In this document: in pieces, positions 4,967 to 24,727 of the stretch
Layout: each line of letters starts with the position of its first letter
Position numbering within the stretch: position 1 is the first letter of the stretch
Origin: Candidatus Nitrosopumilus sp.
GTDB taxonomy: Archaea > Thermoproteota > Nitrososphaeria > Nitrososphaerales > Nitrosopumilaceae
Assembly (NCBI GenBank): GCA_003702495.1
Contig: REGH01000007.1
Span: forward strand, 1-41,046
Length of the DNA: 41,046 nucleotides
Direction: 5' to 3'
The notes under the pieces: generated by a model
Told to the model about the DNA's origin: nothing
What the model saw: the letters and a program-made list of their open reading frames with translations, nothing else
Databases searched by the model: none
Made by a program: the position numbers and the translations under genes

Positions 4967-5644
4967 GTGAATACTTACCAGGCTCTCAAAGTATTAGATA
5001 TCGATTCTAATTCATCTCAAGAGCAGATCAAGGCAGCATTTAGGAAAAAGGCACTAGAACACCATCCAGACAAAAATAAGAATAAGAATGAAGATTTAGA
5101 ATTTAAGAAAATTACAGAGGCATATGAATATCTAAAGAAAAACCACAATCAAAAAAATGATGTTTACCACACCACACAGTCTGGAACACAATCAAAACCA
5201 AAATCTAATTTCAAAAGAAAACCATGGGGAGCTCCAGATGATGAAAAAATTCCAGAACAAGACTGGGGCAAATATACAAAAGAGTTTGAAGAAGGAGATC
5301 CTGAATTTTGGAAAGAATATGAGAAAAAATTTTGGGAAGAATACAATGCGAGAGTCCGTCCTGATGGCAGAAATGGAGAGTATGAAAAGGCACAAGAGCC
5401 TAAAAAACAACCCAACCTCTTTGTGGATGTAGACGAAAGTCTGTGTATTGGTTGCTGTAGTTGTGAGATAATAGCACCAGATGTTTTTGAAATTAATAAA
5501 GAAAGAATGATGAATCCAAAATCATCCGTAATTGATCCAAAGGGTGCAGGGGTAAACAAGATTATGGATGCAGCAATGACTTGTCCTACAAAGGCAATAA
5601 TTGTAGAAGATGTAGATACAAAAGAAAGAATGTATCCTTACTAG
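4967..5644 (+). CDS. DnaJ (J-domain)-ferredoxin fusion protein
   Basis: N-terminal J domain with HPD ('LEHHPDKNKNK') and C-terminal ferredoxin-like cluster motif 'CIGCCSCEIIAPDVF...AMTCPTKAI'; GTG start. Confidence 0.9.
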   Translation: MNTYQALKVLDIDSNSSQEQIKAAFRKKALEHHPDKNKNKNEDLEFKKITEAYEYLKKNHNQKNDVYHTTQSGTQSKPKSNFKRKPWGAPDDEKIPEQDWGKYTKEFEEGDPEFWKEYEKKFWEEYNARVRPDGRNGEYEKAQEPKKQPNLFVDVDESLCIGCCSCEIIAPDVFEINKERMMNPKSSVIDPKGAGVNKIMDAAMTCPTKAIIVEDVDTKERMYPY

Positions 5645-6594: not shown

Positions 6595-7734
6595 ATGACA
6601 GTAAAAAATATCACAATTTTGGGTTCTGGAGTAATGGGGCACGGGATTGCTCAGGTATCAGCTACTGCAGGATACAATGTAGTTCTACGAGATATTGAGC
6701 AGGGCTTTTTAGATAAGGCAATGGAAAAAATCAGATGGAGTTTAGATAAACTAGTTTCAAAAGAAAAAATTTCAAAAGAAGAAGGGGATGCAATTTTTGG
6801 CAGAATCAAACCAATTGTTGATTTGAAAGAAGCTGTAAAAGATGCAGAATTAGTTATCGAAGTAGTTCCAGAAATTATGGATCTAAAGAAAAAAGTTTAT
6901 GCAGAACTGGATCAAGTGGCAGCACCTGAAGTGATCTTTGCATCAAATACCAGTACACTACCAATTACTGAAATTGCAAATACAACATCAAGACCAGAAA
7001 AATTCATTGGAATTCATTTCTTTAATCCTCCACAATTAATGAAATTGGTAGAAGTTATTCCAGGTGAGAAAACATCTCAAGAGATTACAGAATTGACTAA
7101 AGATTATGTAAAGTCAGTGAACAAACAAGCAGTGTTATGTAGAAAGGATGTTCCAGGATTTATCATAAACAGATTATTCATACCAATGGTTCATGAGGCA
7201 TGTTATGCTAAAGATAGAACAGGGGCAACTCTTGAAGAGATTGATTCAGCTGTAAAATTTAATCTAGGATTTCCAATGGGAATCTTTGAGTTAGCGGACT
7301 TTACAGGAATGGATGTGATTCACAAAGCAACCGTTGAGATGCATTTGAGAGATAAAAAAGTAATCAATCCACATCCAACAGTAGAGAAAATGTTTGATGA
7401 AAAGAAACTTGGGCAAAAATCAGGGGAAGGATACTACAAGTATTCAGATGACAAATATGAAAGAGTAGAACTTTCTGAAGAGCTTGCTCAGAAATTTAAT
7501 CCAATTCAACTGGTGGCAAATATTCTAAACAATGCAGCATGGCTTGTAACAAATGGTGCAAGTGATATCGAGGAGATTGAAAAAGCAGCCCAATTAGGTT
7601 TAGGATTGAAAAAACCCCTATTTGAGACAGCAAAAGAAATTGGTATTAAAAATATTGTAGATGAGTTAAACAAACTTGCAGAAGAACATGGTGAGTTTTA
7701 CAAGCCGGATCCACTACTATTATCTATGCAATAA
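6595..7734 (+). CDS. 3-hydroxyacyl-CoA (3-hydroxybutyryl-CoA) dehydrogenase
   Basis: 379 aa; NAD-binding 'ITILGSGVMGHGIAQVSATAGYNV', 'FFNPPQLMKLVEVIPG', 'DVPGFIINRLF'. Confidence 0.93.
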   Translation: MTVKNITILGSGVMGHGIAQVSATAGYNVVLRDIEQGFLDKAMEKIRWSLDKLVSKEKISKEEGDAIFGRIKPIVDLKEAVKDAELVIEVVPEIMDLKKKVYAELDQVAAPEVIFASNTSTLPITEIANTTSRPEKFIGIHFFNPPQLMKLVEVIPGEKTSQEITELTKDYVKSVNKQAVLCRKDVPGFIINRLFIPMVHEACYAKDRTGATLEEIDSAVKFNLGFPMGIFELADFTGMDVIHKATVEMHLRDKKVINPHPTVEKMFDEKKLGQKSGEGYYKYSDDKYERVELSEELAQKFNPIQLVANILNNAAWLVTNGASDIEEIEKAAQLGLGLKKPLFETAKEIGIKNIVDELNKLAEEHGEFYKPDPLLLSMQ

Positions 7735-16843: not shown

Positions 16844-18610
16844 ATGTTAAAATTCCAAGACAAAGTCGCACTGGTTACAGGAAGCGGAACAGGTATTGGA
16901 AAAGCCATTGCAACAAAATTTGTAGAAAATGGTGCTAGTGTAATTATTCTGGGTAGAAGAAAAGAGCCACTACAAGAGGCCGCAACAGAACTTGAGGGAA
17001 AAATTCCACAAGGAGTAAATGCTACAGTCAAAATTTTTGCAGGAGTAGATGTTGCAGATGAAACAGCAATGAATGAAATGTTTGACACATTAAAAAATGA
17101 AGGAACAAATGTAGATTATATCATTAACAATGCAGGAGTTTCAGGTCCTGTAACATGTTTTCCAAATTCACCATTAGATGAATTCAAAAGTACTATTGCA
17201 ATTCATTTGACTGGAACATTTTGGGGTTCAGTTCAAGCACTAAAAGTAATGAAAGAAGGAGGAAAAATAATTACAATTTCAACATTCTTTACTGAAGAAA
17301 AACCATTAGAACAAAGACCATACAGATTTAGAAGTCCATACACTGCATCACAAGGTGCAAAGAACAGACTTGCTGAATGCATGTCATGGGAATTAACTGA
17401 TAAAGGAATCATATCAATTGCAACAAATCCAGGTCCAGTTCATTCAGATAGAATTTACAAGACAGTATATCCAAAAGCAGCAGCAGAATTTATGAGAGTT
17501 AGCGGATTTGAAGACTTGACCCCAGTTCAAGTTGAAGAAGCAAAAGACGATTTACTAGAATGCATTCAAGCAGACGGAATTGATAAAGAAGGAATTGCCA
17601 AAACAGCAGAAAAATTAGCAAACGGAAGAGATGTTGCAAAATTAACAGAAACATATACAAATCTATTAACAAAAATTAAAACCATAGCTGAGAAAGTACA
17701 GAACAACACTTCTCACATGATTGCAAACAGAGAATTTTTGTCACAAGCACAAGTATCTGAAACAGTTCTCAATTTGTGTGATGATGAAATTGCAAAAATT
17801 ATCAACGGCAAAGTAATTCCAGGAGATAGAGTATTTTATCCAGTAAAACCTCACATCGGAACAACAGCACCAGGAGTTCATCAACCAGACTTTACAGGAA
17901 AAGCAGTAGTCTTTACAATTGATGGAACAGACAAAACAGATGCTGAAAGAGTCGAATTTTTGGCAAGTCATGTTGAGAAAAACGGTGGGAAAGTTGCATG
18001 TTTCATTTCACAATCAACACCTCAAGAGATTCAAGATTCCATTAGTGGAAAATTCCACTCTCATGTAGTAGATATCAAAAATCCTGAGGAAGTAGAAAGA
18101 TGGCTAAACACTGCCAAAACAAACATTGGAGAAATTCTAGCAGTAGTTCACGTTACAGGTAAACTACCAGAAGTAGGAAATCTAACTGAATTAACTAGAG
18201 CAGGCTGGGAAGAACTAGTTGCAAAATTCATCTCAACACCAGCAACTGTTGCCCAAAGAACACTAGAGCAATTTGTTCCAGGAGGAGGAAAAGATCCAAG
18301 ACTCTACAAAGATAAAACAGGCTCCATCATGATTATTGGCCCAGACTTGCCAGTTGGAAAAAAAGTTTCAGGAACACAAAGAGCACAAGTAGAAGTTTTC
18401 AGAGGAGCATTAAGACCATTCACAACAACAGTAAATCAAGAATTAAGTGATGTTCTAAAATCTAAAATCAGAATGTTTACTGTTTTCCCAGGTTCTGTAA
18501 CAGGAATAGAGCCAGACAATCAAAAAATTGCAGATGCATTTAATTTCTTAGTATCAGAAAATGCTGCTTCATCATCTGAAGTAACTTTCTGTGTTGACGA
18601 ATCAAGATAA
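16844..18610 (+). CDS. Tandem short-chain dehydrogenase/reductase-like protein
   Basis: 588 aa; first SDR 'VALVTGSGTGIGKAIATKFVENGASVIILGRR', 'YIINNAGVSGP', 'SPYTASQGAKNRLAECMSWELTDKGIISIATNPGPVHSDRI'; second half a degenerate Rossmann/SDR-like domain. Confidence 0.88.
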   Translation: MLKFQDKVALVTGSGTGIGKAIATKFVENGASVIILGRRKEPLQEAATELEGKIPQGVNATVKIFAGVDVADETAMNEMFDTLKNEGTNVDYIINNAGVSGPVTCFPNSPLDEFKSTIAIHLTGTFWGSVQALKVMKEGGKIITISTFFTEEKPLEQRPYRFRSPYTASQGAKNRLAECMSWELTDKGIISIATNPGPVHSDRIYKTVYPKAAAEFMRVSGFEDLTPVQVEEAKDDLLECIQADGIDKEGIAKTAEKLANGRDVAKLTETYTNLLTKIKTIAEKVQNNTSHMIANREFLSQAQVSETVLNLCDDEIAKIINGKVIPGDRVFYPVKPHIGTTAPGVHQPDFTGKAVVFTIDGTDKTDAERVEFLASHVEKNGGKVACFISQSTPQEIQDSISGKFHSHVVDIKNPEEVERWLNTAKTNIGEILAVVHVTGKLPEVGNLTELTRAGWEELVAKFISTPATVAQRTLEQFVPGGGKDPRLYKDKTGSIMIIGPDLPVGKKVSGTQRAQVEVFRGALRPFTTTVNQELSDVLKSKIRMFTVFPGSVTGIEPDNQKIADAFNFLVSENAASSSEVTFCVDESR

Positions 18611-18612
18611 GA

Positions 18613-19062
18613 ATGAAAAAATTTTCCGAATTCAGAGTAGGAGACACATTTCACTCTACATGTAGCATTTCAGATAAAGAATTACAAGAATATCTAAATT
18701 TTTCAAGAGTTAGAAATGCATTTTTAGAAGATAAACAAAGTGGAGAACAAATAGTTTCAGGGCGTGCAATTTTATCAAGAATGGAAGGTGAATTTACTAG
18801 ACTAAGTCAAATTTATGGAAACCATATTGTTTTTCTTGGAACAGATGGAGACCCAGAATGGAATAATAGAAACACAAGATTTCTCAAACCACTATACGCA
18901 GATCAAGTTTTGAAATTAAAATTCACAATATCACAAGTAGAAGACATGGATGATGAATTTGGAAAGATAGCAGTAGACTATGAAGGAACAGATAATGAAG
19001 GAGAAACAATTGTTCTTTCCAAAAGAAACATCTACAGAATAAAAAAAGAACCACCAAGATAA
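18613..19062 (+). CDS. MaoC-like hotdog-fold protein
   Basis: 149 aa; 'FRVGDTF', 'SGRAILSRMEGEFTRL', 'NTRFLKPLYADQVLKLKFTISQVED' pattern of MaoC/hotdog hydratases; 2 bp after the SDR gene. Confidence 0.65.
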   Translation: MKKFSEFRVGDTFHSTCSISDKELQEYLNFSRVRNAFLEDKQSGEQIVSGRAILSRMEGEFTRLSQIYGNHIVFLGTDGDPEWNNRNTRFLKPLYADQVLKLKFTISQVEDMDDEFGKIAVDYEGTDNEGETIVLSKRNIYRIKKEPPR

Positions 19063-22458: not shown

Positions 22459-22923
22459 ATGAAATCTAAAAACTCTAAAAGATTAGACTCCATCAAAGCC
22501 GCACATCAATCTGAAAGGGCTCGTTCTAGCACCAGAATGGAGGATTATTTGGAGATTATTTCAGAATTAGTAGAATTGAAAGGTTATGCAACAACTTTAG
22601 ACATTTCAAGACACATGAATGTTAGCGCTCCAAGTGTCACCAAGATGCTACAAAGATTAGACGAGGGAGGATATCTAGAATATGAAAAATATCATGGAAT
22701 CAATTTAACAAAAAAAGGTACAGAAGTAGCTGAGGGAATAAGACAAAAACACGGAATACTACTAGAGTTTTTTGAAATACTAGGTGTTGGATATGATACT
22801 GCAAATCAAGATGCAGAAGGGATTGAACATCATCTAAATCCAAAGACAATAAAACAATTAAGAAAATTCATTACTTTTCTAAAAGCAAATCCAAAGATTA
22901 TCGATAATTTTAAAAATCTTTAA
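22459..22923 (+). CDS. DtxR/MntR-family transcriptional regulator
   Basis: 154 aa; 'RMEDYLEIISELVELKGYATTLDISRHMNVSAPSVTKMLQRLDEGGYLEYEKYHGINLTKKG' winged helix. Confidence 0.88.
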   Translation: MKSKNSKRLDSIKAAHQSERARSSTRMEDYLEIISELVELKGYATTLDISRHMNVSAPSVTKMLQRLDEGGYLEYEKYHGINLTKKGTEVAEGIRQKHGILLEFFEILGVGYDTANQDAEGIEHHLNPKTIKQLRKFITFLKANPKIIDNFKNL

Positions 22924-24727
22924 GAAATAACTGAATATCATTTTGTGAAGATGCAAGTTTCGTTAAATTTCTTCCAACATCAGAACGTTTTGGAATTTTG
23001 ATTTGCCCCTTTTTACCAATTCTAGTTGATGTAATGTAATCATCATTGACATAAATATCAGCATGCATTGCAGTATACTCTTTACTGACATTAAAAATCA
23101 AAGCTGTCTTTGATTCTGAAAAACTGAAAGGTAAATCGCTTGAATCCAAATTATAGTGCTCAGAGTCTTTTTTAACAACATCAACATGGATTTGTAATTG
23201 TTTTTCAAGTTCATTAATGTTTGAGCCTCCTCTTCCAATAATAGATGGGATGTATTGCTCATCAACCAATACCTTAACCCTATTTTCAGAAAGAATTTCA
23301 ACTTGTGCTCGTGGATCATATTTCTTGAATGTCTCACGAATTTTATCCTCAGCTAGTTTTTCTATTCCTATTTTGGACTTTTTTCCCACAGGAACAATCA
23401 CATTTTCTTCGCCAAAAGTATAGATTTCATGCTCTAACAAATTATCATCAAAGTTTCGAATTTCTATAACAGGTCTTGCAAGATCAGACTCGGTCATTCC
23501 AGAAGGCACTTTGACTTTTAATTCCAAATCATATACTTTTTGAATTTGACCATCTTTTACAAAAACTACAGTGTCCAAAACATTTGGAATTATACCAAGT
23601 TCAATTTTTCCAATGAATCTTTGAATTGCATCTAAAGGAGAGTTTGCATGAACAACTCCCACCATTCCAACACCAGTTAATCGCAAATCAGCAAACGTTC
23701 TAAAATCTTCACGACGTCTTACTTCATCAAATACAGTGTAGTCAGGACGTACAAGAAGTAAGATGTCAGCAGTATTATCAAAACTGCCATCCAGTTTACT
23801 GTATTGTGTAATACCAGGCTCAACTTGCAAATCACGTGGAGATTCAAATGTTTTTACTATTTTTCCCTTGTTGTGATAAAAATTTGCGAGTCCTGAAGCT
23901 AAAGTACTCTTTCCAGAACCAGGGGCACCAGAGATAACAATTCCTTCAGCTCTGTCAGATAATCTTTCCATAAGTTTTTCAGAGATTGCATAATCTTCAA
24001 GAGACATTTGAATAATTGGATGAACAATTGTGATCTCAAAGGATTCAGAAAAGGGTGGATGGGTGATTGCTATTCTATAATCTTCGTGTTGAATGACAGA
24101 TGCACCAGTTTTAGAAATTTCAACAGTACTAGAATCATTTGTGTTTGCAACATCTAGAATTTGTGAGGACATCATCTCCAAATACTCTCGTGAAAGAGTA
24201 TCATCATTAATTTTTGTGAGTAAAAAGCTACCAGGTTTACCTCTTTTTGCAAGGGGGTGTTGATTTTCTTTAAGATGAATACTCATTGTTTCAGCATTAA
24301 AAAATTTTAGAAACTCCAAAGTTTCCTTTCTCATTTCAGTTTTTAGAAATACCGTTGGGATTCCTTTTGCTCGTGCAACTAAATCTTGAACATGATCAGA
24401 GGTGTAAAGAGTTGCATCAATTTGTTTTGCCATATCTGCAATTATTGCATCAATTCTTCCATCTCCTGCAAGTTTAATTTCATCAGGAGATAGGTGAGGA
24501 CCTTGGGAAATTATTTCTAATCCAAAACTTCCAGACAGATCTTTTAGTTTACTAATCTTCTCTAATCCAACAAAACCCTGTTCTTTATTTTTAGATGCCT
24601 GAGACTGTAATTCATCTAAAACTGCTTGAGGAATTATTATTTGGGAATTTCTTATTGATCCAATCTCTATTTGATTTATGAGTTGACCATTAATTATAAC
24701 ACTAGTATCAGCGACAATTTTTGACAA
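22910..24727 (-). CDS. PIN domain - ATPase - KH domain protein
   Basis: 605 aa; PIN 'MSKIVADTSVIINGQL', Walker A 'GAPGSGKSTLASGLANF', KH 'IPSIIGRGGSNINELEKQLQIHVDVV'. Confidence 0.93.
   Translation of the reverse strand: MSKIVADTSVIINGQLINQIEIGSIRNSQIIIPQAVLDELQSQASKNKEQGFVGLEKISKLKDLSGSFGLEIISQGPHLSPDEIKLAGDGRIDAIIADMAKQIDATLYTSDHVQDLVARAKGIPTVFLKTEMRKETLEFLKFFNAETMSIHLKENQHPLAKRGKPGSFLLTKINDDTLSREYLEMMSSQILDVANTNDSSTVEISKTGASVIQHEDYRIAITHPPFSESFEITIVHPIIQMSLEDYAISEKLMERLSDRAEGIVISGAPGSGKSTLASGLANFYHNKGKIVKTFESPRDLQVEPGITQYSKLDGSFDNTADILLLVRPDYTVFDEVRRREDFRTFADLRLTGVGMVGVVHANSPLDAIQRFIGKIELGIIPNVLDTVVFVKDGQIQKVYDLELKVKVPSGMTESDLARPVIEIRNFDDNLLEHEIYTFGEENVIVPVGKKSKIGIEKLAEDKIRETFKKYDPRAQVEILSENRVKVLVDEQYIPSIIGRGGSNINELEKQLQIHVDVVKKDSEHYNLDSSDLPFSFSESKTALIFNVSKEYTAMHADIYVNDDYITSTRIGKKGQIKIPKRSDVGRNLTKLASSQNDIQLFLKDF

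Follow-up and report, generated by a model that had tools for sequence, protein, structure and literature searches.

The closest described systems to the protein reported here are the malonyl-CoA reductases (MCRs), which hold four SDR domains and two active sites in one chain. Each half of an MCR, the N-terminal MCR-N (8hi6, 8aew, 6k8v) and the C-terminal MCR-C (Chloroflexus, Roseiflexus, Porphyrobacter; 8a8t, 8hi5, 6k8s), is a tandem SDR, and both share a YxxRxxY motif (PMC10470521). The active site of Roseiflexus MCR-N comprises Thr165, Tyr172, Arg175, Tyr178, Lys182, Ser213, and Arg215 (PMC10470521). In the first step of MCR, the CoA thiolate is proposed to be protonated by the pair Tyr743-Arg746 and not by a lysine; the aldehyde step is carried out by Tyr178, which is recharged via Lys182 (PMC10470521).

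Several reductases of the 3-hydroxypropionate/4-hydroxybutyrate (HP/HB) cycle of ammonia-oxidizing archaea (AOA) are described as unidentified. These are the malonyl-CoA and succinyl-CoA reductases of Nitrosopumilus maritimus, whose activities are present in extracts (PMC6038301; also PMC6964070), together with succinic semialdehyde reductase and acryloyl-CoA reductase (PMC6038301). No later identification of these enzymes, and no proteomics paper naming the tandem SDR, was found in the openly available journal papers searched. The malonyl-/succinyl-CoA reductase of Sulfolobales would act at the same step as proposed here, but belongs to the unrelated ASD family, and the Fe-ADH Nmar_1110, a malonic semialdehyde reductase, serves the neighbouring step in AOA and also comes from an unrelated family. 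The Nitrosocaldus genome paper mentioned that malonic semialdehyde reduction might fall to short-chain dehydrogenases sharing around 30% identity with the Chloroflexus enzyme (PMC5797428), so the resemblance to MCR described below was partly anticipated.

The window, that is, the whole stretch of 41,046 nucleotides analysed, encodes a tandem SDR protein (P0001) in a single open frame starting with ATG, opposite a strand with many stops. Its features are as follows.

16844 to 18610, forward strand: tandem SDR protein of 588 aa, candidate malonyl-CoA/succinyl-CoA reductase
16844 to 17458, forward strand: SDR1 catalytic core, residues 1-205 (Pfam adh_short, 1e-41)
16877 to 16900, forward strand: TGSGTGIG, residues 12-19, dinucleotide-binding loop (motif in sequence)
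16955 to 16960, forward strand: Arg38-Arg39, invariant in 52 of 52 aligned proteins
17126 to 17137, forward strand: NNAG, residues 95-98 (motif in sequence)
17282 to 17284, forward strand: Thr147, the catalytic Ser/Thr position, aligned with MCR-N Thr165, invariant
17321 to 17341, forward strand: YxxRxxY (Y160-RF-R163-SP-Y166), invariant, the motif that binds carboxylate and takes part in catalysis in both MCR halves
17351 to 17353, forward strand: Gln170, where MCR has its catalytic Lys (Lys182/Lys753), invariant
17360 to 17362, forward strand: Lys173, at Tyr+7, one helical turn beyond the usual Lys position, invariant
17441 to 17452, forward strand: HSDR, residues 200-203, invariant
17459 to 17878, forward strand: helical lid and linker, residues 206-345, with invariant Arg218 (helices from the AF2 model)
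17879 to 18607, forward strand: SDR2, a degenerate second Rossmann domain, residues 346-588 (AF2 of residues 340-588, pLDDT 91)

The sequence-only reading had described 588 aa with an N-terminal SDR carrying TGSGTGIG and NNAG, as is the case, and YxxxQ in place of YxxxK, which agrees with the codons TAC ACT GCA TCA CAA at 17339-17353 (Y166-T-A-S-Q170). Its account of a second, Rossmann-like half without the glycine-rich and YxxxK motifs was right about the motifs, as neither GxxxGxG nor YxxxK is found in the sequence of that half, and can be made more precise, since the half nonetheless folds as an SDR domain in the AF2 model. The chain therefore holds two SDR domains and one plausible active site instead of the four and two of MCR.

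The AF2 model of the whole protein (pLDDT 87.4, pTM 0.89) places its two SDR domains in an MCR-like orientation. When this model was compared with the PDB by Foldseek, MCR chains from both halves occupied ranks 1-24 and 26 (E 7e-25 to 5e-17, RMSD 6.6-9.2 A, aligned over the tandem length), in keeping with the MCR-like tandem layout that had been proposed from the sequence and not with a likeness to unrelated SDRs alone. The only other protein among the top 26 was the tandem SDR 2et6 (E 3e-17, RMSD 16.9 A), and single SDRs began at E 7e-14, about ten orders weaker than the MCRs. The top PDB matches by sequence were full-length malonyl-CoA reductases, 8hjw and 8hi4, at both halves, and the MCR-N string quoted in the sequence-only reading is correct, as 8hjw shows. 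By hhalign the protein is colinear with MCR-C along the entire length of that half; the Chloroflexus MCR half sequences used in the comparison were checked letter by letter against PDB chains.

Similarity of the core is not diagnostic by itself, because generic SDRs score as high as either MCR half (93.5 bits for 4iuy with the SDR core profile, against 86 and 75 for the MCR halves). The active site is more specific. Among the MCR-N active-site positions the protein differs only at Lys, Gln170 standing at Tyr+4, and Ser201 and Arg203 align with MCR-N Ser213 and Arg215, the latter also with MCR-C Arg785. YxxRxxY was found in none of 46 control SDRs, and a core tree grouped AOA, MCR-N, and MCR-C against 52 other SDRs, mainly from viral contigs, with a support of 94/84, which falls below the star of the tree program. 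SDR2 was dropped as a sign of kinship with MCR: modelled alone, its best structural matches are generic SDRs, its sequence score against SDR4 of MCR-C is weak (24.7, with a shuffle maximum of 22.9), and hhalign detected no likeness to SDR2 of MCR-N.

The specific kinship to the N-terminal half of MCR suggested earlier was not upheld. The SDR1 core scores slightly higher with MCR-C than with MCR-N (160 and 146 by hhalign, shuffle maximum about 20), the Thr-to-Tyr spacing of 19 is closer to the 18 of MCR-C than to the 13 of MCR-N, and an F..EK...PYxxRxxY block corresponds to MCR-C. With this half the protein further shares the lid, the long Ser/Thr-to-Tyr loop, the Arg past the PGP loop, and a degenerate second SDR, whereas it differs in being encoded by a stand-alone gene and in the changes of Lys to Gln and Ser to Thr. 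The Thr, YxxRxxY, the SDRI string, and the tandem SDR are common to MCR-N, from which it is set apart by the change of Lys to Gln, an additional helical lid, and a catalytic loop six residues longer. The lid, with AF2 helices at 202-220, 227-238, 248-258, and 264-294, measures about 92 aa from the PGP loop to the end of SDR1, where MCR-N has about 39 aa and MCR-C about 156; hhalign found no sequence similarity between it and the CoA-binding extra domain of MCR-C. Its invariant Arg218 is a candidate counterpart of Arg799 in that domain, and Arg1164, in SDR4 of MCR-C, has no clear counterpart. As the core tree leaves the branching order of the three groups unsettled, with AOA beside MCR-N in the best tree at a support of 83/19, it was abandoned as a means of choosing between the halves. 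The protein is best read as a stand-alone third branch of the MCR-type tandem-SDR superfamily.

The gene is almost always single-copy and is maintained, as indicated by dN/dS values of 0.04-0.18 against nine orthologs. Its NADP-binding motifs are invariant among the aligned orthologs, and Thr147, Tyr160, Arg163, Tyr166, Ser201, and Arg203 are invariant both in 59 orthologs from a genome search and in an alignment of 52 proteins, of which 51, with 45-96% identity, come from named GTDB genomes. The same applies to Gln at Tyr+4, which rules out a sequencing error: no ortholog with Lys, which had been named in advance as a possible refutation, turned up.

Orthologs (E <= 1e-60) occur in 268 of 400 genomes of the class and AmoA in 249 of the same draw, both confined to f1, f2, f3, and f5, the four AOA families sampled. 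Outside the AOA families no match at 1e-25 appeared in a draw of 300 genomes of the phylum, and in a scan of GTDB proteins the best 80 matches listed all bear AOA-type titles, beyond which bacterial homologs may follow. Homologs on plasmids and viral contigs were dropped as relatives of the whole protein, being single SDRs that cover about half of the query. Two confirmed HP/HB enzymes show the same pattern, present in all AOA and in AOA only (PMC8287830). Such a profile would fit any AOA-specific function, autotrophy and ammonia oxidation alike. HpaB/4HBD was not retained as a distribution marker, since it is broader (302 genomes of the class draw) and reaches non-AOA families. The families f4, f10, f12, f19, and f20 have HpaB/4HBD-type proteins without AmoA or the tandem SDR gene, and several of them have a carboxyltransferase too.

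Besides this distribution, the acyl-CoA reductase steps can be approached by exclusion. Of 28 AOA genomes, five (G046, G089, G103, G124, and G177) have no ALDH (PF00171) at all; each is at least 95% complete, and they include a complete genome of 1.2 Mb and another of 0.8 Mb. The ASD family, to which the tandem SDR does not belong by family or fold, has two copies in 27 of the 28, read as asd plus argC/lysY, the number expected for amino-acid biosynthesis. Alternative reductase families are thus absent from some AOA genomes or present in housekeeping number only, which supports the tandem SDR by exclusion.

Taken together, it is probable, if only just, that the tandem SDR is the NADPH-dependent, semialdehyde-forming malonyl-CoA reductase of the thaumarchaeal HP/HB cycle, possibly acting on succinyl-CoA too; the role in carbon fixation raised from the sequence is upheld as likely. 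SDR1 would bind NADPH, a preference suggested by the alignment of Arg38 with RfxMCR Arg41, which contacts the NADP 2'-phosphate (PMC10470521). Thr147, Tyr160, Arg163, and Tyr166 would hold the acyl carboxylate and carbonyl, with CoA covered by the lid between SDR1 and SDR2. Hydride attack would then yield the semialdehyde, and the leaving CoA thiolate would be protonated by the Tyr160-Arg163 pair, as proposed for MCR-C. Gln170 in place of Lys would weaken the Tyr-Lys acid needed for aldehyde reduction, so that the reaction would stop at the semialdehyde, to be reduced next by Fe-ADH or another enzyme. An enzyme that keeps the Tyr-Arg pair but has Gln for Lys would therefore fit a reduction of the thioester that halts at this stage. 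It is not obvious that such an enzyme can do without the Lys, because Lys753Ala abolished the activity of RfxMCR-C (PMC10470521); Gln170 may still orient NADPH. More tentatively, a single promiscuous tandem SDR, representing a third MCR branch, could reduce both malonyl-CoA and succinyl-CoA, the loss of Lys confining it to thioester reduction.

The protein might instead take the role of MCR-N and act on the semialdehyde of malonate or succinate, forming 3-HP or 4-HB, which we consider unlikely. The Thr at the catalytic Ser position, the SDRI..TV string past the PGP loop, and the weakly supported place beside MCR-N in the best tree would all agree with this, as would the gap at succinic semialdehyde reductase (PMC6038301) and the lack of Fe-ADH in Nitrosocaldus (PMC5797428); Fe-ADH has only weak matches in f2, and the strong, Nmar_1110 type is absent from several AOA that retain the tandem SDR. 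However, the Lys is lost exactly where MCR-N needs it, Lys182Ala having strongly reduced activity (PMC10470521), and the lid exceeds that of MCR-N. Reduction of malonate semialdehyde, the activity proposed in the sequence-only reading, becomes less likely in particular, since Fe-ADH is retained alongside the tandem SDR and already serves this step in most AOA genomes checked, while the acyl-CoA steps are without an enzyme.

Similarly improbable is an AOA-specific reductase or regulator outside the HP/HB cycle, or an NADPH-binding pseudoenzyme, the last of which had also been contemplated earlier. The lost Lys, the degenerate second SDR, and a profile that follows ammonia oxidation as much as autotrophy speak for it, against which stand the invariant carboxylate-binding YxxRxxY and NADP sites, the low dN/dS, and the retention of the gene in a genome of 0.8 Mb (G124). 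An acryloyl-CoA reductase, for which the gap at this step (PMC6038301) and an invariant FabI-like Tyr-x6-Lys spacing (Tyr166 and Lys173) could be invoked, is very unlikely, as the helix and PGP loop alignment rule out that register and put Gln170, not Lys173, at the classical Lys, acryloyl has no carboxylate for YxxRxxY, and the sole enoyl reductase among the 50 structural matches listed is 1yxm, at rank 46.

The surroundings of the candidate malonyl-CoA reductase gene include two further genes of interest.

18613 to 19062, forward strand: 149-aa protein, 2 nt downstream of the tandem SDR, next to it in 49 of 80 loci
6595 to 7734, forward strand: 3-hydroxyacyl-CoA dehydrogenase (HBDH) of the Nmar_1028 kind, about 9 kb upstream

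The first, without a significant Pfam match, is conserved beside the tandem SDR in Nitrosopumilaceae only and is possibly its partner. The second corresponds to Nmar_1028, a characterised HP/HB-cycle enzyme (PMC8287830). Among 19 single-contig genomes of the genera g1-g4 and g9, HBDH and the tandem SDR gene are separated by 8.7-15.8 kb in 17 (the exceptions being G073, at 30 kb, and G081, where they lie far apart). The f2 genome G067 has 12.9 kb between them, and the distance reaches at least 87 kb in the genera g8, g11, and g13 and in family f3. This linkage is weak support, because much of it is shared synteny, and no operon with cycle genes was found beyond the 149-aa neighbour of Nitrosopumilaceae and this loose association, lost in several families. 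Elsewhere in the window, 4967-5644 (forward strand) encodes a protein that combines a DnaJ domain with a 4Fe-4S ferredoxin domain, and 22910-24727 (reverse strand) a 605-aa protein with a PIN domain, a secretion-type ATPase, and a KH domain.

AOA, which are abundant microbes of ocean and soil, must have a carbon-fixation enzyme that is described as unidentified, and the tandem SDR, built like the bacterial MCR, is the strongest candidate for it in this analysis. If this is true, the gene would serve as a marker and supply a step missing from metabolic models, and the archaeal and bacterial pathways would have drawn on a single reductase superfamily, recruited separately into each.
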